Source: Anodontia alba (taxonomy: Eukaryota > Mollusca > Bivalvia > Lucinida > Lucinidae). Taken from it: 64,000 bases of DNA. This document shows, one piece after another, positions 22,690-57,413 of the stretch (position 1 is its first letter; each line of letters opens with the position of its first letter). Location: the NCBI GenBank assembly GCA_964016985.1, contig OZ024828.1, positions 80,584,033-80,648,032 on the forward strand, given 5' to 3'. Under the pieces are notes generated by a model. It ran no database searches and was not told where the DNA came from. It saw only the letters and a list, made by a program, of their open reading frames with translations. A program made the position numbers and the translations under genes.

Positions 22690-23470
22690 AACCCTTTAAC
22701 CGCTGAGTTTCCTGAAATGGATTTTCATCTTTGAATCTGGACATGTCCACGGATGGAATTGGGGTTTCAGTCTTAACTCAAAAACAGGATGGCGAACAGT
22801 GTAAATCCTTATGAGACGGCTCATAATTCTGTTTTGATTTTTTAAATGATCTCTATTTGGAACAACGGTTCTGACAAGATTAAAGACAGAAGCGTCCATT
22901 TCAGAAACCCAGAGATGGAAGAGAGAAATTTTCTAATTTTTACTGGATTATAGCTTCAACACAGTACGATCATGTAGGGTTTTTGATATCGTATTATCGC
23001 CCGGCTTACATGTAGCCCAAGCGTTCGTGCAATCTCCCGCTGTAGGGGAAATTAAACTTATGATATTTCGATATTTTATTGCACAGAGTTTGTTTATGTT
23101 GAGGTTTTACGGCCCAGTCAACCCAATAGGGTCATGTCGAGCGCGGTCAGTTTACCTAACCACTCGTTTACTGGGCAGGCTTAGTCCTCCAAGCGGTTAA
23201 CCAGTATTGTGCACATTCTTTCGCCAGAAACTGACAACTGCCCTTCTTGAATCAGCGGAAGGGAGAGAATGACCGTAGAAAATATTTCATGATCAATTTC
23301 CACGAAAGAATGTTGCCGACCTCGGCGGGGGTCGAATCCGCGACCTCCTGGTCTCCAGTCGGACGCGCATCCAACTGCGCCACCGAGGCCGGCTATTGCA
23401 CAGAGTCTTTCACTGTCAGGCTTTCATTATAATGTGATGTAAATACTGTTAAAAGAGAACAAATCATCAC
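22690..23470. repeat. Dispersed 400 bp repeat split by a SINE
   Basis: The inverted counterpart of 12560-12950. It runs from about 22690 to 23099, is interrupted by the SINE at 23100-23393, and resumes at 23407. Confidence 0.6.
23100..23393 (-). mobile_element. tRNA-derived SINE (V-SINE-like) with 13 bp target duplication
   Basis: A 294 bp SINE on the minus strand. Its 5' head (23326-23393, read on minus) is tRNA-like: box A TGGCGCAGTTGG and box B GGATTCGACCC, which are the RNA polymerase III internal promoter. The body carries GGGAGAGAATGACCG and CTTAGTCC blocks; the 3' end is ACGGCCCAGT followed by an A/T tail. Both flanks are TATTGCACAGAGT (23087-23099 and 23394-23406), a perfect 13 bp duplication from LINE-driven insertion. 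The plan resembles the molluscan V-SINE family RUDI; I cannot align it here. Confidence 0.85.
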
Positions 23471-23813: not shown

Positions 23814-24210
23814 GTTTAATTTTACCATTAAGACCACTCGAATTTAGGACTACTCCGCTATTAAGAGCAGCTTTTGCCAGCCTTTTTTTTTTCTTATTAT
23901 GCCATATTCAATATGAAGACCGTGTCACAAATAAGACCACTTTAACCCATTGATGCCGTGTGGATTCCTCTACCATACCTCTTTGGACCGATATATTTCC
24001 AGTAAAAGGGGTGTCTGATTAGTTTTTATTATTTCCTTGTTGTACAGAGATTCCTGTACTAAATGCAAACAGTGTAGACCCTGATCAGGCGCCGCGTTCT
24101 GCGGCGTCTGATCTGGGTCTACACTATTTGCCAACGTCCCATTTATAAGACGCTAGGCACAAATAGGTTAAGGAAGTACCAAAGATGGCCTTAATAGTAG
24201 TATCTCACTG
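23814..24210. mobile_element. pogo/Tc1-like MITE (TA-flanked) interrupted by a TTAA element
   Basis: TA flanks at 23812-23813 and 24211-24212. The ends carry ATTAAGACCACTCG and TTAATAGTAGTATCTCACTG, an inverted pair. The element is cut at TTAA by the MITE at 23946-24167. A related copy lies at 41901-42080. Confidence 0.65.
23946..24167. mobile_element. TTAA-flanked MITE (piggyBac-like), nested
   Basis: TTAA at 23942-23945 and 24168-24171. Starts CCCATTGATGCC and ends with the complement-like GCACAAATAGG. It contains a well-kept hairpin (about 24064-24132) with GATCAGGCGCCGCGTTCTGC. It sits inside the TA-flanked MITE at 23814-24210 and is therefore younger than it. Confidence 0.8.
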
Positions 24211-27618: not shown

Positions 27619-27953
27619 CAGTCGAACCTCGTTATCTCGAACTCGCTTATTTCGAATCACCGCTTATCTCGAAGTGAAAATCTGGTCCCTGTTTTAACAT
27701 GAAACTATGACAACAGGTAACAAAATAATGTGCAAAAGAGGAGAAATTGCTCCTAAGGAGCAATTTCTCCTCTTTTCCACATTATTTTATATATATATTT
27801 CCAACTTCAGGAGTCAAATTACATATTAATTTGTTAAATGTGGTTGTTCAATTTACTGTTTTCCTCACTCTCTCAACTCTGATATGTCGAGGTACGGATA
27901 TCTCGAAGTATTTCAGTGAGTGCCTTGGAATTCGAGATAACGAGAGTCGATTG
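27619..27953. mobile_element. pogo/Tigger-like MITE with TA duplication
   Basis: 335 bp. Starts CAGTCGAACCTCGTTATCTC and ends with the inverted partner TTCGAGATAACGAGAGTCG, then ATTG. TA flanks both sides (27617-27618, 27954-27955). The ends carry tandem TCTCGAA-like motifs, as in pogo/Tigger elements of the Tc1/mariner superfamily. The centre is a palindrome of GAGGAGAAATTGCTCC. There is no transposase. Confidence 0.85.
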
Positions 27954-30671: not shown

Positions 30672-31040
30672 TTACATTAGATCTATTATCGATTCACATA
30701 TTTGTGCCCAGTCTGGCTGAATTTTATAATATCCGTCTTCAAACGCAAAGTTAACACGCGTGAAATGTCGAAATACTTGCAACATAGTCTCGTTCATCTC
30801 ATGCTCGTCAACCATCTCTTTAAACATTGGAATGATATTTTTTCTCGTCAGGTAAGCCTGTTCTATTTCATATCGACAGAATTCACTTCTACAGTAGTTT
30901 TTCGAGATCACAGCTACGAATACCGATGTCTCCCGAAGGCACCGGAATATTTCTGATAGGATGGTGCGGCCTGGTATGAAATCTTTATCAGCAAAACATA
31001 TAAGATCTCTGTCGACTCCGCTGAAGTCCTGCAGATGACG
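30672..31040 (-). CDS. Toll-like receptor, 3' exon (rest of TIR domain)
   Basis: Encodes 122 residues and a stop in phase 0. The exon begins at 31040 after the acceptor TATATGTTTTCAG. The frame is open further upstream, but that part is intron. TIR motifs: box 2 region CFADKDFIPGR (residues about 15-25), the BB loop with its conserved proline (P23), then FVAVISKNYCRSEFCRYEIE, and a C-terminal helix ending at IIDLM. In TLRs this domain lies in the cytosol and recruits MyD88-type adaptors. The first strand (YPVFLSYSSDD) is in the other exon, 6.9 kb away. Joining the two gives a complete TIR order, and the DPLQ to RHLQDFSG junction is the expected place in helix A. No FW box 3 is obvious. A broken partial copy lies at 29615-29945. 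Confidence 0.88.
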   Translation of the reverse strand, partial: RHLQDFSGVDRDLICFADKDFIPGRTILSEIFRCLRETSVFVAVISKNYCRSEFCRYEIEQAYLTRKNIIPMFKEMVDEHEMNETMLQVFRHFTRVNFAFEDGYYKIQPDWAQICESIIDLM

Positions 31041-32425
31041 CTGAAAACATATAAGATGTTTCTGTAAAGCACCAAGAAGATGATCATTAGTTAATTCTTT
31101 CCAACCTGAGTATATGAAATGGACGGTTCCATTACTGAATTTGGACTTGTCCATTTTTGCAAATAGGGGCGTTAGTAAAAATAATGATAATAATAAAATG
31201 GCAAACAATGTATTTGCATTCGTATCAGTTTGGTCTGCAGGGCTGAACGGGTTAAGAGCAATTGAGACACCAAATATTTTGCTGCCCTTTTACAAGAGAG
31301 ACAACTGTTTTGGTTGTTCGTTTGTTTGTTTAAACTAGACATCGGACTCTTTCTGGAAGAAGATGAACAGTCGAACTTCAAAGGCTCCAATATCTTTGGG
31401 ACCATGTATATTTGTTCGAGACACGGGTAGTTCGAGCCACTAATAGTTAATCATAGCACAAGGTCAAGAGGCAAATGGATATAATTTAGAGATACCTTTT
31501 CGATCTTCTGTATAATAATGGTATGTTGAGTGTATTCATTAGAATCGCCTCGATGAGGCAACAGTAGTGAGTACACACAGCATACATGTTCACGATCGTC
31601 ATGTCAAAATCCGGAAAAAATCTCTAAAATATCCCTAAATGTATATATATATTTTTTAGCTATCGTGAGATTTCCCGGGAAAAAAATTCGAATTAGCCAC
31701 GATAAACAAATCATCAGTGTTCGAGTCGCTGTAATTGGACTAATCCAAAATGAAAGAATTTGCTCCTCATGTAGCAAATTTAGAGTATATATGTATCAAT
31801 AAGGAAAGCAAATTTATTTCGTCAGAGTTTTCTTCCATTCCATGTAAGGGGACTAGATACACTTGGTAGGATTCGCCCCTTCGCCCCCCCCCCCCCCCCA
31901 CCCCGCTCCCTTTTTTTTTTTTTTACAATGAGGACAACTTTTGCAATTTCCTGGGTGCCTTGCTGCACGTCGTCTGATGGGTCTACTCTAAATCGAAAAA
32001 TATTTCTTTGCTGAGGTAGTAGACCACTTTTCAGAAGGAATGCAAAAACATTTTGGCAGAGTTGCTTCCCCTGAAAGTGTATCAATTCACCCGAAAACGC
32101 TTTTTACTAAACAAAGCATTATGACGTGCGAAGACATCGCTGAACAAGGATTTAAAAACAATACATCAGAGTTTCAATGACTCGAACACCGACTACTCGT
32201 GTACCGTGGCTGTTTTGAACTCGTCCCTAGGAGATTTGAAAATGTTTAGGGATAGTTAAGTAGTAAAAAATTCTTCTTTTTTTTTTTTTTCATGAAAATG
32301 CATGTGATATATATATATACTCAATGGAATCGCCTCTGATATTTCAGGAAACTGTTCTTATTCATAATGAAAATGTATGTTGTGTGTACTCATTAGAATT
32401 GCTTCATCGAGGCGACTACTTTTAT

Positions 32426-37173: not shown

Positions 37174-37957
37174 CAATTTCCGTTTTGGGGTCTGCAGACT
37201 AAAATAGCGTAACGTGAAAATATAGATTGAATCGACAACCACCGAAATAGCAGTCACATAATTATAGCAATACCGGTCTATGGACGAATCATTTTGCTTG
37301 CAAACCAGTTAAGGAAATCTTGGATTTTACCCTGGAATAGTTATTTTTATCATACCCCAGTTATCCTACCCAGAATAAGATATAATTGAGAATTCTCACG
37401 TGTTTGATGTACTCTCGTTGTAAAGGACGTTAAGGTTGATGTCATTGAACGTAATGATGTCACTAACGTCAAAGTAATGTCATTACAATATCCGGACGTC
37501 AGCAATCAAAGTGACTGTATTATAAAAAGTCCACGTTCGGAAATGAAATGTATGCAAGAAAAGAAATCTATAGATATGAGGCATAAATAGGAAATTCTGT
37601 CCCTCGGGGTCAAAGTCTGGTGATGCCAGACAGTGACCCTCGGGACGGATTTTTCTATCTATCCCTCACACCCATGAGATATTTATAATATTGCGTACCT
37701 AACATCTCCAAAACACACGATTACTTGCATGCGCATGTTGCCCATTCTGGTTTCTTTGAAAAACGAATATCATTTAAGCCTGTGCTAAGAGGGGGGCGTA
37801 TGCAGCCGCGCAACGTACAATGCTGTACATGTGTATGAAGAGTCCCAATCAAACCGAGACCCTGAACGTTCTTTTATATGCTCTTTGTTTCTAAAGGTAA
37901 CCGTTTCGATTTTTATTGTACTCTAATGCAACAACTGTAATAACAAGTAAAAAGTAC

Positions 37958-39805
37958 CTGCAGTGGGTCGAGCACAAACTGAGCAACAAAGTCCCTGTCG
38001 TCACTGGAATAGGACAGGAAAACTGGATAGCGAAATCCTATGGTGTTTTCTCGAAGCTGAGTGACTTGATCTTCCATCCGTTGGTATAACATCTTTTTCT
38101 TACGTCTTTTATAAACAATCACAAAAGCTATAATCGAAGCTACAATAACAGTTGGAGATAGAGTAGAAGACAAGAGCACAATGAGCCGTTTACGTTTAAC
38201 TCTTTCGCAATCCTCTTTCGACACATTAACCACCCCGTCATTCATTTCAATACTCTTGCCATATAATTTGCAATGATAATTGTGTCGAATATCCAAAAAT
38301 ATAGGCGAGACAACAAACCACTGAAGGAACTCAAGAGACTCACAAGTACAGGACAATGGATTTCCGTCGAGTAACACCTGAACGGATATGTTGTTAAAAG
38401 TAGTATTATGCAACTGTTTTTGAGAATTATATAGGTTATCCAGAAATGTCTGTGACTGTTTATCAAGATAATTTATGGCATTAAACCGAAGGTCCAAAAA
38501 TGATAAATTTAGGAGATACGAAATGTCAAATGTTATTTGCTGCAAAGTATTATTTGAAAGATCTAGCTCTTTTAAATTTATATTTGAAGCAAACGTGCGA
38601 GTGGGGAGGTATGTTAGTTTGTTAGATGACAAATTAATAACTTTAATCTGGCGAGTATACCGAAATAATTCCGAAAATACACCACGTAATGCATGCATGC
38701 TAAACAATTGGTTATTAGAAAGGTCTATTTCTTCTAAGGAGCTTAAGTTTTTCAATGCCTGCCGATTAATATTTTGTATGGCATTACGAGATAGATTGAT
38801 AAATGTGAGTCGATCGTTGAATAACTTTGCATCGAAATTCGGAAGGAAATTACGAGAAAAATGTAGCTTTCTGATGGAAGTATTAATATATAATAGAAAT
38901 GAGCAATTGGAGAATGAAACTTCTTCTAGTTGTGTCACAATTTCATTGATGTATATAACTTGTACTGCTCCAAAGAAAGCAAAATTAAACTGCAATTCTA
39001 TGCTGTAATTAACACACATATTTGTTTTGATGTCCTTTTTTAACGCAACTGATTGGCTGGCATTTAAAACTTTTAACGACTCACAAACACGCGCTTGCTT
39101 AAATTTTCTTTTACAGTCAGTCGGTGAACCAACGTAACTAAAGGTGACTAGCGTTTCGCACAACTTGCTAGAGTTGTGAAAATCAAATACGAAAGACAAA
39201 AAACTTATGTCAAGATAAGCTATTGGTCTCAGAGCAAGAGCATTTATGAAGTTTTGGTTTAGCTTTAAAGTATAATAGAGTCCACTACCGGCAAGAATCA
39301 GCTGTGTAAGTTTGGGGAAGTTTTTTGATTCAGCCAGAGTTTTGTACAAATCGGACCAGTGTATACTTCTGCAGTGTGAAAGGTCAAATAATACAATGTT
39401 CTTCAAACCAGTAAATGCATATTTAGAGAAGTGCTGTAGAAAACGACTCCTCAATTTGAATGCAGAAATAGTTTCTAGACATTCAAAGACTCCCCCAATT
39501 AAGTTAAAATATTTCGGTTTTGCATTTTTCTGGGAATCGACTGAGATTGACACGACTTCAACATTAGTCCATGATACTTGACAAAATCTTCCTGGAACAA
39601 GTTCTGCAGGATCTATCTGTGACATAATGATTTCTTTTGTTGTCAAAGGTACATTGAATGGTATGTAATTCACACATTTGACCTTTTCATGGTAACATCT
39701 GCAATTCTGGTAAGAACAAGTATCATTTTTCTGAAAAAGCAAATTAGTCGTTGATGTTGTCATGCCCATCAGCAATAGCAATAAAAATATCTTCCTCGTC
39801 CACGT
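37958..39805 (-). CDS. Toll-like receptor, ectodomain/transmembrane exon
   Basis: 616 codons, phase 0 at both ends. The acceptor TTTTCTGCATTTCAG precedes ACGTGG at 39805, so the upstream ATG at 39878 is probably intronic and the true start lies in an unseen 5' exon (candidate 49207-49279). Order: hydrophobic signal-type core IFLLLLLMG; a Cys cluster (CSYQNCRCYHEKVKC); LRRs, clearest in the C-terminal half (LEEIDLSNNQL, IKVINLSSNKL, LKELDLSNNTL, LSFLDLRFN); an LRR C-cap (NPLSCTCESLEFLQWF) with later cysteines; a membrane segment (LIVLLSSTLSPTVIVASIIA) followed by KRRKKK; the TIR start YPVFLSYSSDDRDF. One C-terminal cysteine cluster is the vertebrate-like TLR plan. The exon ends at CTGCAG before GTACTT. 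Role: innate immune receptor; ligand not predictable. Confidence 0.9.
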
Positions 39806-39849
39806 CTGAAATGCAGAAAAGATATGAACCGTAACGTGAGAAAACGTAC

Positions 39850-40037
39850 TTTCTGACAGACGTGCCAAACGAAGACTCAAATCAGACTGCGCATGCGCGC
39901 AGTCTGATCAGAGTCTCCGCTGTCCGTATGAAGAAACTTAGTATCTTTTGCTATCCAAATGCACCCAGTGAAGATTCTGATCCGATTCCGCGAATGCGCT
40001 GATCTGAATCTTCGCTGAGCGCACATATCCGATGGTA
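39850..40037. repeat. Long foldback repeat family B (split by Tc1 element)
   Basis: Contains AATCAGACTGCGCATGCGCG with its partner, TATGAAGAAACTTAG, GATCTGAATCTTCGCTGAGC and CCGATGGTAC. It resumes at about 41381 with TTTTCTGACGTTGCGGCTC after the transposon. It overlaps the apparent upstream coding extension of the TLR exon, which supports treating that extension as non-coding. Confidence 0.65.
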
Positions 40038-50087: not shown

Positions 50088-52063
50088 AGAATCCATCATG
50101 AGCCAGTCCATGCAGGATAGGGTAATCTCACCCGAAGGATAGGAATTTCAACCGGGGACGAGGCTTTAGAATCCATCATAAGCCAGTCAATGCAGGATAG
50201 GGAAATCTCGTCCGAGGGGTAGGAATTTCAACCAGGGACGAGGCTTTAGAATCCATCATAAACCAGTCCATGCAGGATAAGGAAGTCTCACCCGAGGGGT
50301 AGGAAATTAAACCAGGGACGAAGCTTTATAATCCATCATGAGCCAGTCCATGCAGGATAGGGAAATCTCACCCGAGGGGTTGGAATTTCAACCAGGGACG
50401 AGGTTTTAGAATATATCATGAGTGCCCATGCAGGACAGGGAAATCTCACCCTCGGAGTAGGAATTTCAACCAGGAAAGAGGCTTCAGAATCCATTATGTG
50501 CCGGATAGGGAATTCACACCCTCGGGGTAGGAATTTCAATTTAGAATCCATCTTGAGTGTTCATGCAAGACAGGGAATTCTCACCCTCGGGGTAGGAATT
50601 TCAACCGGGGAAGAGGCTTTAGAATCCATCATGTGTCCATGCAGGATAGGGAAATCTCACCCTCGAGGTAGGAATTTCAACCGGGGACGAGGCTTTAGAA
50701 TCCATCATGAGTGTCCATGCAGGATAGGGAAATCTCACTCTCGGGGTGGGAATTTCATCCAGGGACGAGGCTTTAGAAGCCATCATGAGTGTCCATGCAG
50801 CATAGGGGAATTTCACCCTCGGGGTTGGAATTTCATCCAGGGACGAGGCTTTAGAATCCATCATCAGTGTTCATGCAGAATAGGGAAATCTCACCCTCGG
50901 GGTAGGGATTTCAACCAGGGTCGAGTCTTTAGAATCCATCGTAAGTGTCCATGTTGATTATGGAAATCTCACTCTAGGAGTAGGAATTTCAACCAGGGTC
51001 GAGGTTTAAGAATCCATCATGAGTGGCCATGCAGAACAGGGAAATCTTACCCTGGAGGTAGGAATTTAATCCAGGGACGAGGCTTGATCGATAATGAGTG
51101 TTTATGCAGAATAGGGAAATCCCACGCGAGGGTAGGACAAGGCTTTAGAATCCATCATGAGTGTCCATGCAGGATAAGGAAGTCTCACCTTCGGGGTAGG
51201 AATTTCATCCAGGGACGAGGCTTTAGAATCCATCATGAGTGACCATACAGGATAGGGAAATCTCACCCTCGGGAAAGGGATTGCAACTAGTCTCCAGAAT
51301 CCATCATGTGCACGCAGAATAGGGAAATCTCATCCGAGAGGTAGGAATTTCAACCAGGGACGAGGCTTTAGAATCCATCATTAGTGTCCATGTAGGATAG
51401 GAAAATTTCACCCGAGGAGTAGGAATTTCAACCAGGGACGAAGATTTAGAACCCATCATGAGTGGCCATGCAGGATAAGGAAATCTCGCCCGAAAAGTGT
51501 GAAAAATTACAACCAGGGAAGAGGCTTTAGAATCCATCATGAGTGTACATACAGGATAGGGAAATCTCACCCTCGGGGTAGGAATTTCAACCTGGGACGA
51601 GGCTTTAGAATCAATCATGAGTGTCCATGCAAGACAGGGAAATCCCACCCTCGGGGTAGGAATTTCAACCTGGGACGAGGCTTTAGAATCAATCATGAGT
51701 GTCCATGCAAGACAGGGAAATCCCACCCTCGGGGTAGGAATTTCAACCTGGGACGAGGCTTTAGAATCAATCATGAGTGTCCATGCAAGACAGGGAAATC
51801 CCACCCTCGGGGAAGGAATTTCAACCTGGGACGAGGTTTTAGAATCCATCATGAGTGACCATGCAGGATAGGGAAATCTCATCCTCGGGTTTGGAATTTC
51901 AACCAGGGACGAGGCTTTAGAATCCACAATAAGCCTGTTCATGAAGGATAGGGAAATCTCACCCGAGGACTAGGAATTTCAACCAGGGACGTCCCTGGTT
52001 GAAATTCCTACCCCGAGGGTGAGATTTCCCTCTCCTGCATGGACTTGCTCATGATGGATTCTT
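50088..52063 (+). repeat. 78 bp satellite array, about 25 units, last unit inverted
   Basis: The consensus unit is 78 bp: AGAATCCATCATGAG, a variable GTGTCC or CCAGTCC block, ATGCAGGATAGGGAAATCTC, ACCCTCGGGGTAGGAATTTC, AACCAGGGACGAGGCTTT. Units at 51590-51830 are almost identical to each other, while edge units are diverged or shortened. At 51990/51991 the array flips: the last unit (51991-52063) is in reverse orientation, making a perfect palindrome around CCAGGGACGTCCCTGG. Because 78 is divisible by three, long frames (such as 50418-50957 and 51304-51942) stay open on both strands. They are not genes. Confidence 0.93.
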
Positions 52064-52231
52064 TTACTCCCACCTTTAATCGGATTGTTCCTAGGACCGG
52101 CGTGGTCATCTGAGCTATAAGTTTCTCACATGGGCAAAAATCCTATCTCATATAAGCAAGGGTGCGAGAAAACATACTTCCTGACATGTGCGCCGCGCAA
52201 TCGATCTTCATCGTTGTCCGCGTGAAGAAAT

Positions 52232-52400
52232 GTAACGGATAAGTATATATATCACTTCTACAGCCTCGCTGTGGAAGCCGACTTTTATGGCGACACTGGT
52301 AGAGTGATTGGCTCTTTTACGAAGTTAAGCAACGGAGACCGCGGTTAGTACATACAGACTACGGTGCTTGACTTCGTAGAAGACCCGGTTTCACGCTACA
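52232..52400 (+). repeat. Left LTR of the TRIM
   Basis: 169 bp, TG to CA. The 5S-like block at about 52320-52363 is less well kept than in the right LTR: GAAGTTAAGCAACGGAGACC, GGTTAGTACAT, then ACTACGGTGCT in place of the box C sequence. Confidence 0.82.
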
Positions 52401-52506
52401 TTGGTGGCAGCGGTAGGATGGAAGATGGTTGCATAGGCTCCGCCCTCGGATTTGCCTCGTGAGGCGTGTTTGACTTCGGGACGAAGTCAAGAGAAAGGGG
52501 GAGAAA

Positions 52507-52678
52507 TGTAACGGATAAGTATATCACTTCTACAGCCTCTCTGTGGAAGCCGGCTTTAATGGCGACACTGGTAGAGTGATTGGCTTTTTTACGAAGTTAA
52601 GCAACGGAGACCACGGGGTTAGTACCTGATGGGTGACTGCGGTGCTTGACTTCGTAGAAGACCCGGTTTCACGCTACA
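52507..52678 (+). repeat. Right LTR of the TRIM
   Basis: 172 bp, TG to CA. It carries all three parts of a 5S rRNA gene internal promoter in order: box A-like GAAGTTAAGCAACG, intermediate element GGTTAGTACCT, and box C-like GATGGGTGACTGCGGTGCT. In 5S genes these bind TFIIIA and recruit RNA polymerase III. Confidence 0.85.
52590..52649 (+). promoter_or_regulatory. 5S rRNA-like internal control region in the LTR
   Basis: Matches the downstream half of animal 5S rRNA (AAGTTAAGCA, GGTTAGTAC, GATGGGTGAC). The spacing between box A and the intermediate element is slightly longer than in 5S rRNA. The first 40 or so bases and the 3' stem of 5S rRNA are absent, so this is not a 5S gene. Transcription by polymerase III is inferred. 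Confidence 0.7.
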
Positions 52679-52753: not shown

Positions 52754-52970
52754 CATTACGAACACAAGCCTACTCAAATATATAGAAAATTTCACCTCCA
52801 AAAACTGAAAATTTTCAGGTAAAAAACTCTGATATTTTTCATATTTCCACCCACAATCTATGTTTTGAGCAGAAATTAGAAAAATAATGTATACCCCAGT
52901 AAACCCCATTTTTACTATATAAAAGTGGGGTTTAAGGGGGTCAAAATTATATAGGCATATTTTCGTGATG
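52754..52970. mobile_element. Foldback MITE, family A, lacking one palindrome arm
   Basis: CATTACGAACACAAGCC start and ATATTTTCGTGATG end, but the central palindrome is reduced to CCACCCACAATCTATG. About 60 bp of arm are missing. Loss of a hairpin arm is a usual fate of foldback DNA. Confidence 0.82.
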
Positions 52971-53105
52971 TGAATTTTTGCTGGGCGCACACGTCCGAAG
53001 GTACGTTTTCTGGCGTTGCTGCTCATTAGATGTGCAACTCAAGAGAAGAGCAACTCTGCCATATACGACCAGCTAAGGTCCAGATCAGCCTGTGGTACAG
53101 TTGAA

Positions 53106-54433: not shown

Positions 54434-55868
54434 CAGTCGAACCTCGTTATCTCGAACTCGCTTATTTCGAATTACCGCTTATCTCGAAGAGAAAATCTGG
54501 TCCCTGTTTTAACATGAAACTATGACAACAGGTAACAAAATAATGTGGAAAAGAGGAGAAATTGCTCCTAAGGAGCAATTTCTCCTCTTTTCCACATTAT
54601 TTTATATATATATTTATCACATGACCGTCAAGTTATTCAGTGAAATAACCAATGTCATAAAAATCATATAACCACACGTGTTATAACACCTGCAAGGCTT
54701 CCCATTGGTTAGCCTAATTACCCTCATTAATATTCGTATTACACCGCTTATTGATAGCAACCAAGATGGTGTCCGCATTCGTCGATACAACTTTCACATT
54801 TGGAACAGATCCTGCCTTCAATTTTGAGATGATTTTGAGAAGATCGATAAATGTCAGACCGACGGAGAGGGGAAGACACAAAACAATCACACTGTGAATA
54901 ATACGGCTACCAGAAATATTCATGGTGGTTAAAATTCGATGTTTTCCGGCAACATATTTGTAGGCACTCTCAACATCGATATCGTGAAGCCGTCAATGTA
55001 AAAAAAAAAAAACAAAAAAAAAAAAAACAAAAAAAAAAAAAATCATCACTTTCTCAAAAAAAGCATTGGAGGATGACATGACTCAGACAGTCAATAAATG
55101 TGTCATATCAAAATCCAAACTACAGTTAATAGTCTTGAAATCTGTCGTTTACTTGAGTGCGTCAAACACCGCATAAAACTGTATTGATCAAGGTCAATGA
55201 CCTTTAAATACATGTATGACAGCTGATTGTGGGGGATTTCCCTACTGATTCTCAGTGACGTATTGACTCGCTGAATGACGTTGTTCAATGGAATGTTTAG
55301 TTTTGAATTGATTTATTCAAATGAAATTTTTATTAGCTCAAATAAAAATTATCATTATTTCTTCAGTTTAACGAAGTAATAAATGGCATATTTATCTTGT
55401 TTCTAGTTATTTTCGGGGTAATCAAATAATATGCGACCTATATTTGTTGCGTAGTACTACTTAATCCTTGGTAGTGAGTTGTTCCGCTTAGCTATGGAAA
55501 GCCGTTATCTTTAAAAATATATGTTTTGCATATTTTGTCATCGGAAGGGCCATGTGATAAACAGAATCTTACATTCGTGGTCATTTAATATGAAATTTAT
55601 GAAACTCGTTGGGTAATTTCGGTATTTTGCTCGCTAAAGCTCGCAAAATACTAAAATTACCCAAACTCGTTTCATAAATTTCATATTAAATGACCACTCA
55701 TGTAAGATCCTCTATTTCTAACTTCAGGAGTCAAATTACATATTCATTTGTTAAATGTGGTTATTCAATTTATTGTTTTCCTCACTCTCTCAACTCTGAT
55801 ATGTCGAAGTACGGATATCTCGAAGTGTTTCAGTGAGTCCCTTGGAATTCGAGATAACGAGTCAACTG
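54434..55868. mobile_element. pogo/Tigger-like MITE split by a 1.1 kb insertion
   Basis: TA flanks (54432-54433, 55869-55870). CAGTCGAACCTCGTTATCTC start and GATAACGAGTCAACTG end. The body matches 27619-27953 except for the insertion 54616-55712. Confidence 0.8.
54616..55712. mobile_element. 1.1 kb insertion with terminal hairpin and a small ORF
   Basis: Flanked by TATTT (54611-54615 and 55713-55717); the empty site is known from 27619-27953. It starts ATCACATGACCGTCAAG, with an inverted match GGCCATGTGATAAA at 55550. From 55569 a long palindrome (arms TGGTCATTTAATATGAAATT and complement) runs to the right end. A minus-strand ORF of 69 codons (54714-54923) begins at an ATG in good context (ACCACCATGA). 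It has a hydrophobic N-terminus (SVIVLCLPLSVGL) and ends near GGGTAATTAG, which could be a splice donor. I do not recognise the protein. A captured first exon is possible but unproven. Confidence 0.55.
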
Positions 55869-56451: not shown

Positions 56452-57089
56452 TTACAAATTTTGTTTGGTGCTTACAGGTTCATTCATACATCTTTCTGAA
56501 TCATGTTTTTTAGACGAATAAGAAAAATACTTTTCAGACAAGGCCGTGTTTTCTGCTAACAAATGTCTTTTCTTTACTTGTAGACTATCGCATGTATCTT
56601 TCAATTCCTTAATTGTATCCACGGCACATTTCAATATACAATTCTTAGGCATTTCACCCTTTCCTTGTAATGAAGGAATGCAATCTCGTAGATTCTTGAA
56701 CATTAATCTCATTTCCCTGCGTCGTTTACGATCAAGAAGAAACTTATGAACATCCTTCGGTCTGAATTCATCCTGGTCTTCATCCTGGTCTACATCCTGG
56801 TCTTCATCCTGGTTTCCATCCTGGCCTGCCTCCACGTTATGGTCTACAAATAGAAAGCCCTCCGATCTATCCTGCACCTTACGACAATAATTATGAAAGA
56901 TTTCCATGTAGGCAACTGTTGGATGCCTGATCAAAAAAGTTATGGGATGGTTACTATTTCTTTTCTTAGAATTTGACATTTTTCCCTGATGATTTCTTTT
57001 CAACGACTTTGATTTGTAGTTTCGTTTCTGTGATTTTCTTTTATGACAATTATCTGTCACTGTAACGACATCAATTTCTTCATCTTCCA
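56452..57089 (-). CDS. Myc-like bHLH-leucine zipper protein, 3' exon
   Basis: 212 codons including the stop, after a 2-base partial codon. The acceptor TTGTTTCTTTGCAG ends at 57090, so the open frame beyond it is intron. Order: EDEEIDVVTV, matching the conserved Myc acidic/IDVV motif; a Lys/Arg-rich stretch; an acidic QDED repeat (56762-56825); the basic region HKFLLDRKRRREMR; helix 1 FKNLRDCIPSL; loop; helix 2 KNCILKCAVDTIKEL; a zipper with four leucines exactly seven apart (LKDTCDSLQVKKRHLLAENTAL). Myc proteins dimerise with Max and bind E-boxes in the nucleus. Oddity: the invariant Glu of the basic region (LERQRR in Myc) is Asp (LLDRKRR). Exon position relative to IDVV is as in vertebrate MYC exon 3. 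Orthology to Myc against another bHLHZ is likely, not proven. Confidence 0.8.
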
Positions 57090-57158
57090 CTGCAAAGAAA
57101 CAATTACCATAAGTAGTAGGACAACATAACCATACCATCCCTGCAGACCAAAACATTT

Positions 57159-57225
57159 GCAAACAGTGCAGATCCAGATGAGACGGCTTATAACATGCCG
57201 TCTCATCTGGATCTATATTGTTTGC
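57159..57225. repeat. TGATCAG-type hairpin core, variant
   Basis: GCAAACAGTGCAGATCCAG to TATATTGTTTGC with arms GATGAGACGGC and GCCGTCTCATC. The same variant (GAGACGGCTCATAA) is at 22800-22830. It lies 70 bp upstream of the Myc-like exon's acceptor. Confidence 0.6.
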
Positions 57226-57413
57226 AAGTGTGTTATAGATTTTAGATTGAAAACCCTATCTGCAACAATGAATGTGTCCAAATTCAAGGATGGAAGAGTC
57301 CACTTCAGACATTTTGGGATGAAAGGGTGAACTCCTTACCATACTTGTACTACAATTTGAACAGGAGTTAACTCAGTGTTACCAGTTCATGTGTCTAAGA
57401 GTGCTGGATGATT

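Follow-up and report, generated by a model that had tools for sequence, protein, structure and literature searches.

The window, by which we mean the whole 64-kb stretch of DNA analyzed here, contains receptor-like reading frames, several kinds of repeat and a 448-bp LTR element at 52231–52678, which consists of a 170-bp LTR, a 106-bp core and a 172-bp LTR (Table 1). An LRR receptor frame (37916–39907, minus strand) and a TIR-domain frame (30675–31289, minus strand) lie ~7 kb apart and perhaps belong to one toll-like receptor gene. The first named relative of the LRR receptor frame is a Mercenaria toll-like receptor (25% identity), and the other named relatives come from Ruditapes, Pinctada, oysters and mussels, as well as from insects, birds and plants. 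We take the host to be a bivalve and, more tentatively, a heterodont clam. A helix-loop-helix frame (56455–57255, minus strand) has six relatives listed at E 0.001, one of which is 99% identical over 79% of the query. Some 170 bp to the left of the element lies a 78-bp tandem satellite (50088–51991, ~24 copies by length) with an inverted piece at its right end (51990–52062), and to the right the element is adjoined by an interspersed repeat with a palindromic part (52754–52971) that recurs in at least 12 other places in the window, on both strands. A short tandem repeat pair occurs twice (27622–27771 and 54437–54586), and the recurrence of similar pairs 27 kb apart makes a larger duplicated segment possible. 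The only tRNA called by ARAGORN in the window is a tRNA-Ser at 23315–23391.

Layout of the window copy

The original prediction described TG...CA repeats of about 170 bp around a 106-bp core, dimensions that hold once the start, placed one base late, is moved to 52231. The predicted primer-binding-site-like start of the core and the polypurine tract are both present: the core opens with a T followed by TGGTGGCAGCGG, placing the primer-binding site (PBS) at 52402, and closes with the purine tract, which ends at 52506. TG...CA LTRs, a total length below 1000 bp, a PBS, a polypurine tract and a non-coding core together identify the element as a TRIM. Its LTRs share 157 identities, with nine mismatches over 166 aligned bases and ten gap columns.

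Table 1 Features of the element in the window
Feature	Position	Strand	Description	Basis
5′ LTR	52231–52400	+	170 bp, TGTAACGG...CACGCTACA	alignment to right LTR; family LTR ends
3′ LTR	52507–52678	+	172 bp	LTR alignment; family LTR ends
Non-coding core	52401–52506	+	106 bp	LTR alignment
PBS, tRNA-Leu type	52402–52419	+	TGGTGGCAGCGGTAGGAT	
Polypurine tract	52490–52506	+	AGAGAAAGGGGGAGAAA, abuts 3′ LTR	sequence
5S-like segment, 5′ LTR	52320–52351	+	box A and intermediate element, 5S positions 47–78; box C lost	
5S-like segment, 3′ LTR	52592–52640	+	box A, intermediate element and box C, 5S positions 47–94	
TATA-like TATATATA, 5′ LTR	52244–52251	+	−30 to −23 if box A lies at the normal 5S distance	
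T6 run, 3′ LTR	52585–52590	+	candidate Pol III terminator, 5′ of box A and 3′ of the implied start	
T4 run, 5′ LTR	52315–52318		counterpart of the T6 run in the 3′ LTR	
Long imperfect hairpin, LTR RNA	52571–52677	+	spans the 5S boxes; matching one in 5′ LTR	
Hairpin TTTGACTTCGGGACGAAGTCAAG in core	52469–52491	+	just 5′ of the purine tract	

Both LTRs carry exact matches to the box A word AAGTTAAGCA and the intermediate-element word GGTTAGTAC. The box C word GATGGGTGAC is found in the right LTR only, the corresponding stretch of the left LTR carrying three mismatches. Within the left LTR, the zone from the intermediate element to box C differs at 5 of 28 aligned sites, compared with 4 of 138 elsewhere (Fisher p 0.0075). 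Because these changes cluster over this zone, the upstream promoter of the window copy would, by the logic of 5S transcription, be broken. The right LTR, for its part, carries a 4-base deletion at the TATA-like site TATATATA. No exact target-site duplication flanks this copy (GAAA/GAAC, three of four bases; AGAAA/GAACA, two of five), and the GAAA/GAAC pair fits one later change in the 4-bp duplication typical of the family. With a left LTR lacking box C and an imperfect duplication, the window copy is an older one, a fossil of its family rather than the best case. A blastn search found no second copy of the element in the window. The motif AGAAA precedes both LTRs (52226–52230 and 52502–52506); it also stands before the first long LTR hit at three genomic loci (L023, L041 and L043), as expected inside arrays.

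A family with a 5S segment in its LTRs

Additional copies and duplications were sought in the 1.86-Gb assembly, where a search that scored 40 of 1526 first-look candidates gave 63 matches, which resolve into 40 places. All 40 best-match places show an LTR, a core and an LTR, some of them partial; two long LTR hits are present in 26, three or more in 11 and one in 3. A second sample was picked without the 5S part, using a 17-base word that joins the LTR end to the primer site. This word occurs 221 times in the genome, compared with zero for its reversed control, and all 30 of the places read are copies or broken copies. LTR hits shorter than 120 bases (100 in the word-picked sample) were not counted as LTRs. 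Other copies thus bear out both the LTR boundaries and the 5S match on which the original prediction staked its claim: among 93 LTRs from the 40 loci, 71 begin with TGTAAC and 79 end with TACA, and all 93 score at least 50 against the host 5S gene.

Matching duplications are also present. Exact 4-bp duplications flank 15 of 37 best-match copies (19 of 1332 in controls) and 12 of 22 word-picked copies (10 of 462 in controls), and exact 5-bp duplications are rarer (3 of 37 and 1 of 22). These counts leave out three best-match loci with one long LTR hit (L041, L043 and L054) and, from the 30 word-picked loci, three that lie in the same arrays as others (L059, L067 and L074, with L031, L066 and L073, respectively) and five of the remaining 27 that do not have two long LTR hits. 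Pooling of both samples gives 67 loci, 42 of which have two long LTR hits and a core of 60–200 bp. In these two-LTR copies, the core measures 93–138 bp, 22 copies have exact 4-bp duplications, and LTR mismatches range from 0 to 16%. Eight of the 42 show less than 3% mismatch, and the same seven of these eight have a 4-bp duplication together with at most one mismatch in each of the three boxes of either LTR. The low LTR mismatch shows that the family has been mobile recently, in terms of relative time only. Outside the genome, blastn against phages and plasmids gave no match to the element, and exact element or 5S patterns were absent from viral contigs and from GTDB contigs. Seven viral-contig matches of the word for the LTR end and PBS lack a second 12-mer copy upstream and look like chance.

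Host 5S genes were identified with Rfam model RF00001. The best 47 of 33627 first-look candidates were scored; all 47 were above the cut-off, on contigs C9 and C12, and one of them (L085) stood for all in the LTR comparisons. Against this gene the left and right window LTRs score 52 and 63, values reached by none of 5000 dinucleotide shuffles of each LTR, and the highest-scoring tile elsewhere in the window reaches 27. Together with the exact box words, these scores uphold the predicted 5S control region in both LTRs, with box C in the right one only. The likeness to human 5S is less marked, the observed scores being equaled by 70 and 6 of 5000 shuffles. In a comparison across the family, the median LTR scores 72 against the host gene, 52 against a fly 5S sequence and 46 against the human one, and the LTR closest to the host gene agrees with it at 45 of 48 bases (L049). 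A caution for 5S annotation follows, as an LTR may match the host 5S gene this closely.

Within the family, the shared segment is limited to 5S bases 47–94. The match starts at 5S base 47 in 75 of the 93 family LTRs and ends at base 94 in 70 of them. In the right window LTR, 5S bases 1–46 and 95–120 are undetectable (1346 and 501 of 5000 shuffles, respectively, do as well), and therefore only the 5S promoter appears to have been taken. A derivation of the LTR part after box C from the 3′ end of 5S is, by the same 501 shuffles, unsupported. At Rfam gathering scores, no match was found in the window, and no match to the 5S model was listed up to E 10 in 901 bases around the element; we attribute this to the shortness of the 48-base segment relative to the full 5S model. 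A strong-seeming match to human 5S near position 24000 proved to be a gapped match to bases 16–48, and was set aside.

Proposed transcription, priming and rival explanations

The three boxes of the 5S promoter recur across the family with their arrangement intact. Exact words are present in 81 (box A), 65 (intermediate element) and 66 (box C) of the 93 LTRs; with one mismatch allowed, the counts rise to 88, 87 and 81, respectively. The spacings between them, 11 and 3 bases, are those of the host 5S gene and are kept in 39 of the 40 LTRs in which all three boxes are exact. In the 53 LTRs of the word-picked sample, the boxes lie within one mismatch in 53, 49 and 47, with the same spacings in 20 of 20. 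Nevertheless, conservation at the box positions exceeds that of the remaining LTR by little (mean majority share 0.967 versus 0.943, equaled by 6 of 128 equally spaced windows), which counts against strong selection on the boxes. Placing box A at its 5S distance implies a start at LTR base 44 on the left (52274) and base 40 on the right. The TATA-like word TATATATA is exact in 54 of 93 LTRs, and among the 74 LTRs that have both TATAW and an exact box A, the most frequent position of TATAW is −30 (31 LTRs). In the six host 5S loci that were read (L085–L090), the genes form arrays with two kinds of upstream spacer, and in both kinds TAAATATG occupies −28 to −21. Donax 5S genes likewise have a TATA-like motif near −28, according to the available excerpt of PMC6204057. 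Just 5′ of box A, the longest T-run most commonly has six bases (58 of the 81 LTRs with an exact box A), and this run could be the terminator used in the 3′ LTR. AATAAA occurs in 5 of the 93 LTRs.

For the RNA of each window LTR, folding predicts a long hairpin with box A inside it (z −4.8 and −5.1). Across the 93 LTRs, 93% of cells in this hairpin are paired, compared with 39–48% in slid controls, a contrast that flatters the hairpin because its structure was drawn from one of those LTRs; compensatory changes are seen in only 3 of 42 pairs. When a quarter of the LTRs (24) were folded singly, z ranged from −6.4 to 1.3 with a median of −4.0. Taken in full, the core shows no more stable folding than its shuffles do (z −0.87). 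The hairpin might guide packaging, and as it includes box A it could constrain the LTR sequence for a reason other than transcription.

The PBS of the window copy matches the 3′ end of tRNA-Leu(AAG) at 17 of 18 bases, and 22 of 29 sampled family sites match a tRNA-Leu 3′ end at 18 of 18, both comparisons being with generic tRNA-Leu sequence. The original prediction called for a related autonomous element with the same PBS. Other repeats do share the site, but no intact helper was found among the genomic places sharing it that were read. There are 73 genomic occurrences of the family PBS in which the preceding base is not T; 20 short places and one inside locus L022 were read. By eye, 5 of the 20 are mutated family copies, and others form repeated contexts of other elements. 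When ACA is added in front of the PBS word, again preceded by a base other than T, four occurrences are found in the genome, all of them copies or broken copies of the family. In L022 the PBS lies at 2483, TGTAAC stands ~105 bases before it, and the end CACGTTACA resembles the family's CACGCTACA. The broken open frames 3′ of this PBS resemble Gypsy gag; among three pieces of these frames, Pfam gave no family in two and NCBIfam none above the cut-off in two. The L022 repeat is a lead only as a helper. Steamer LTRs start with TGTAACA, which is near TGTAAC, but its PBS, in the partial account available, is TGGTGTCAGAAG, and it is therefore not the helper in this simple form. At another locus, L115 (minus strand), a stretch that by eye resembles the 3′ half of tRNA-Leu is followed by CCA. 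No tRNA is called in it by ARAGORN or by Rfam, and it may be a fragment of a tRNA that was reverse transcribed. Animal tRNA genes do not usually encode CCA.

We consider it likely that the window element is an aged copy of a non-autonomous LTR retroelement (TRIM) family whose LTRs took over the internal promoter from the host 5S gene, positions 47–94 only, and would use it for transcription by Pol III. The basis for a 5S-promoter TRIM is shown here: a family of copies, defined LTR ends, a PBS, a purine tract, duplications, 5S boxes at 5S spacing and recent copies. In the life cycle that we propose, TFIIIB would settle on the TATA-like stretch ~30 bases upstream of the start, and Pol III would begin at about LTR base 44 and end at the T-run of the 3′ LTR before box A, giving an R repeat of ~40 bases. 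The RNA could then be packaged in particles of a Gypsy-type element acting as helper; a tRNA-Leu would prime its reverse transcription, and integration would produce 4-bp duplications. As the T-run is also present in the 5′ LTR, the terminator must be read through once, which counts against this scheme, as do the loss of box C from the left window LTR and the lack of an intact helper among the places read. According to PMC10886601, Cassandra RNA starts in the 5S part of its 5′ LTR and stops in that of its 3′ LTR.

We judge it unlikely that the element is an ordinary Pol II TRIM that carries the 5S segment as a passenger and uses the TATA-like stretch for Pol II. In favor of that reading, the TATA-like stretch fits Pol II equally well, the boxes are little more conserved than their surroundings, and RNA of Echinococcus ta-TRIM, an element that shares the tRNA-Leu primer word, is reported to be polyadenylated although AATAAA is lacking. 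For this last reason, the scarcity of AATAAA in the clam LTRs is weak evidence against Pol II. Against Pol II stand the retention of just the promoter segment of 5S and the recurrence of the three boxes, at unchanged spacing, in both samples and irrespective of copy age. The 5S-derived promoter could also suggest a SINE3 (a 5S-headed SINE) or a 5S pseudogene with chance flanking repeats, and for Cassandra and Ajax themselves, PMC10886601 proposes an origin by insertion of a SINE3 into an LTR. As an account of the present element, this explanation is highly improbable and is refuted by the 4-bp duplications, which lie at the outer LTR ends family-wide; the LTR ends, PBS and purine tract and the missing outer parts of 5S in the right window LTR also oppose it. 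SINE3 may nonetheless be the origin of the 5S segment.

We give least credence, close to none, to the possibility that the repeats are a fragment of a tandem array, that is, a satellite rather than a mobile element. The original prediction had treated an array of more than two units as incompatible with a TRIM, and arrays do occur: 11 of the 40 best-match loci have at least three long LTR hits, AGAAA stands before both window LTRs as it would inside an array, and the 78-bp satellite adjoins the element. However, the two-LTR copies with short cores make up 42 of the 67 pooled loci, 22 of them with exact 4-bp duplications; blastn finds no match between element and satellite; and tandem arrays are reported for the TRIMs Cassandra and biv-TRIM.

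Relation to known elements

In kind, the window element is a 5S-promoter TRIM; it looks like an animal counterpart of Cassandra and resembles Ajax. The comparison with Cassandra made in the original prediction therefore stands as far as a TRIM with a 5S promoter is concerned, but the nearest animal comparison is Ajax. In the accessible portion of Kojima 2024 (PMC10886601), Ajax is a TRIM of 421–434 bp from the nemerteans Notospermus geniculatus and Lineus longissimus, and is grouped with Cassandra and Helenus as TRIMp3, TRIMs with a small-RNA-gene promoter in the LTR. The clam family shares this defining trait, as host 5S bases 47–94 are found in 93 of 93 LTRs. According to the same portion, Ajax LTRs also hold only box A, the intermediate element and box C of 5S, and Ajax also has a tRNA-Leu PBS and a polypurine tract, the tRNA-Leu match of the clam family being to a generic tRNA end. 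By contrast, Ajax duplications are 5 bp there, whereas those of the clam family are mostly 4 bp, and the host phylum differs. Because of the difference in duplication length, we file the clam family as a 5S-promoter TRIM and not as Ajax, a comparison made with the description of Ajax rather than its consensus sequence.

Cassandra, from vascular plants, is a TRIM with a 5S promoter in each LTR and, in the sources as partly available, also has terminators and tandem arrays. The window contains neither the Cassandra PBS word TGGTATCAGAGC nor exact matches to the Cassandra patterns for box A and box C, which match the clam element at best at 10 of 12 and 11 of 13 bases. Cassandra measures 565–860 bp (PMC10886601, accessible portion), compared with 448 bp here. 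In the literature searched, Cassandra and Ajax are the only 5S-promoter TRIM lineages, and we found no report of a molluscan one in the open-access literature searched. A tentative reading, to which we give somewhat less than even weight, is that a TRIM acquired the 5S promoter once more and independently, this time in a bivalve, and that the resulting family works with another integrase (4-bp duplications), has been mobile recently and has a 5S part that looks as if it tracks, or is refreshed from, the host gene. A mollusc 5S TRIM would make 5S promoter capture a repeated route for non-coding LTR parasites, and in an animal family with young copies the driving of an LTR element by Pol III would be directly testable.

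Among other relatives, Helenus comprises tRNA-headed TRIMs, with 51 families in pteriomorph bivalves (PMC10886601, accessible portion). It resembles the clam family in having a small-RNA promoter in the LTR, animal families with 4-bp duplications and proposed Gypsy-type helpers, and differs in that its listed bivalve primer sites do not include tRNA-Leu in that portion. Helenus also carries tRNA-like sequence, whereas ARAGORN finds none in the clam element; generic tRNA patterns for box A and box B occur in neither of the window LTRs nor in the core, and the box B pattern occurs in none of the 93 family LTRs. Like the clam family, biv-TRIM (Satovic et al. 2019, PMC6934838, seen in excerpt) is a bivalve TRIM with a purine tract, GGGGAGA, and tandem arrays. 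It differs in its TDR of 202–218 bp, its core of 77–80 bp and the lack of a clear PBS. The pieces compared, two primers and one inner motif, are short and match the element no better than shuffles, and a word search of the available text found mention of neither 5S rDNA nor a polymerase. Available parts of PMC7215508, PMC10853983, PMC10294476 and PMC12859917 were also consulted. Finally, in the available text of PMC4558846, which mentions no 5S segment, the ta-TRIM of taeniid tapeworms has LTRs of ~198 bp, a core of ~590 bp and polyadenylated RNA. It nevertheless shares with the clam family a tRNA-Leu PBS and, in E. multilocularis, mostly 4-bp duplications, and its core primer begins with the same 13 bases, TTGGTGGCAGCGG, as the family PBS.
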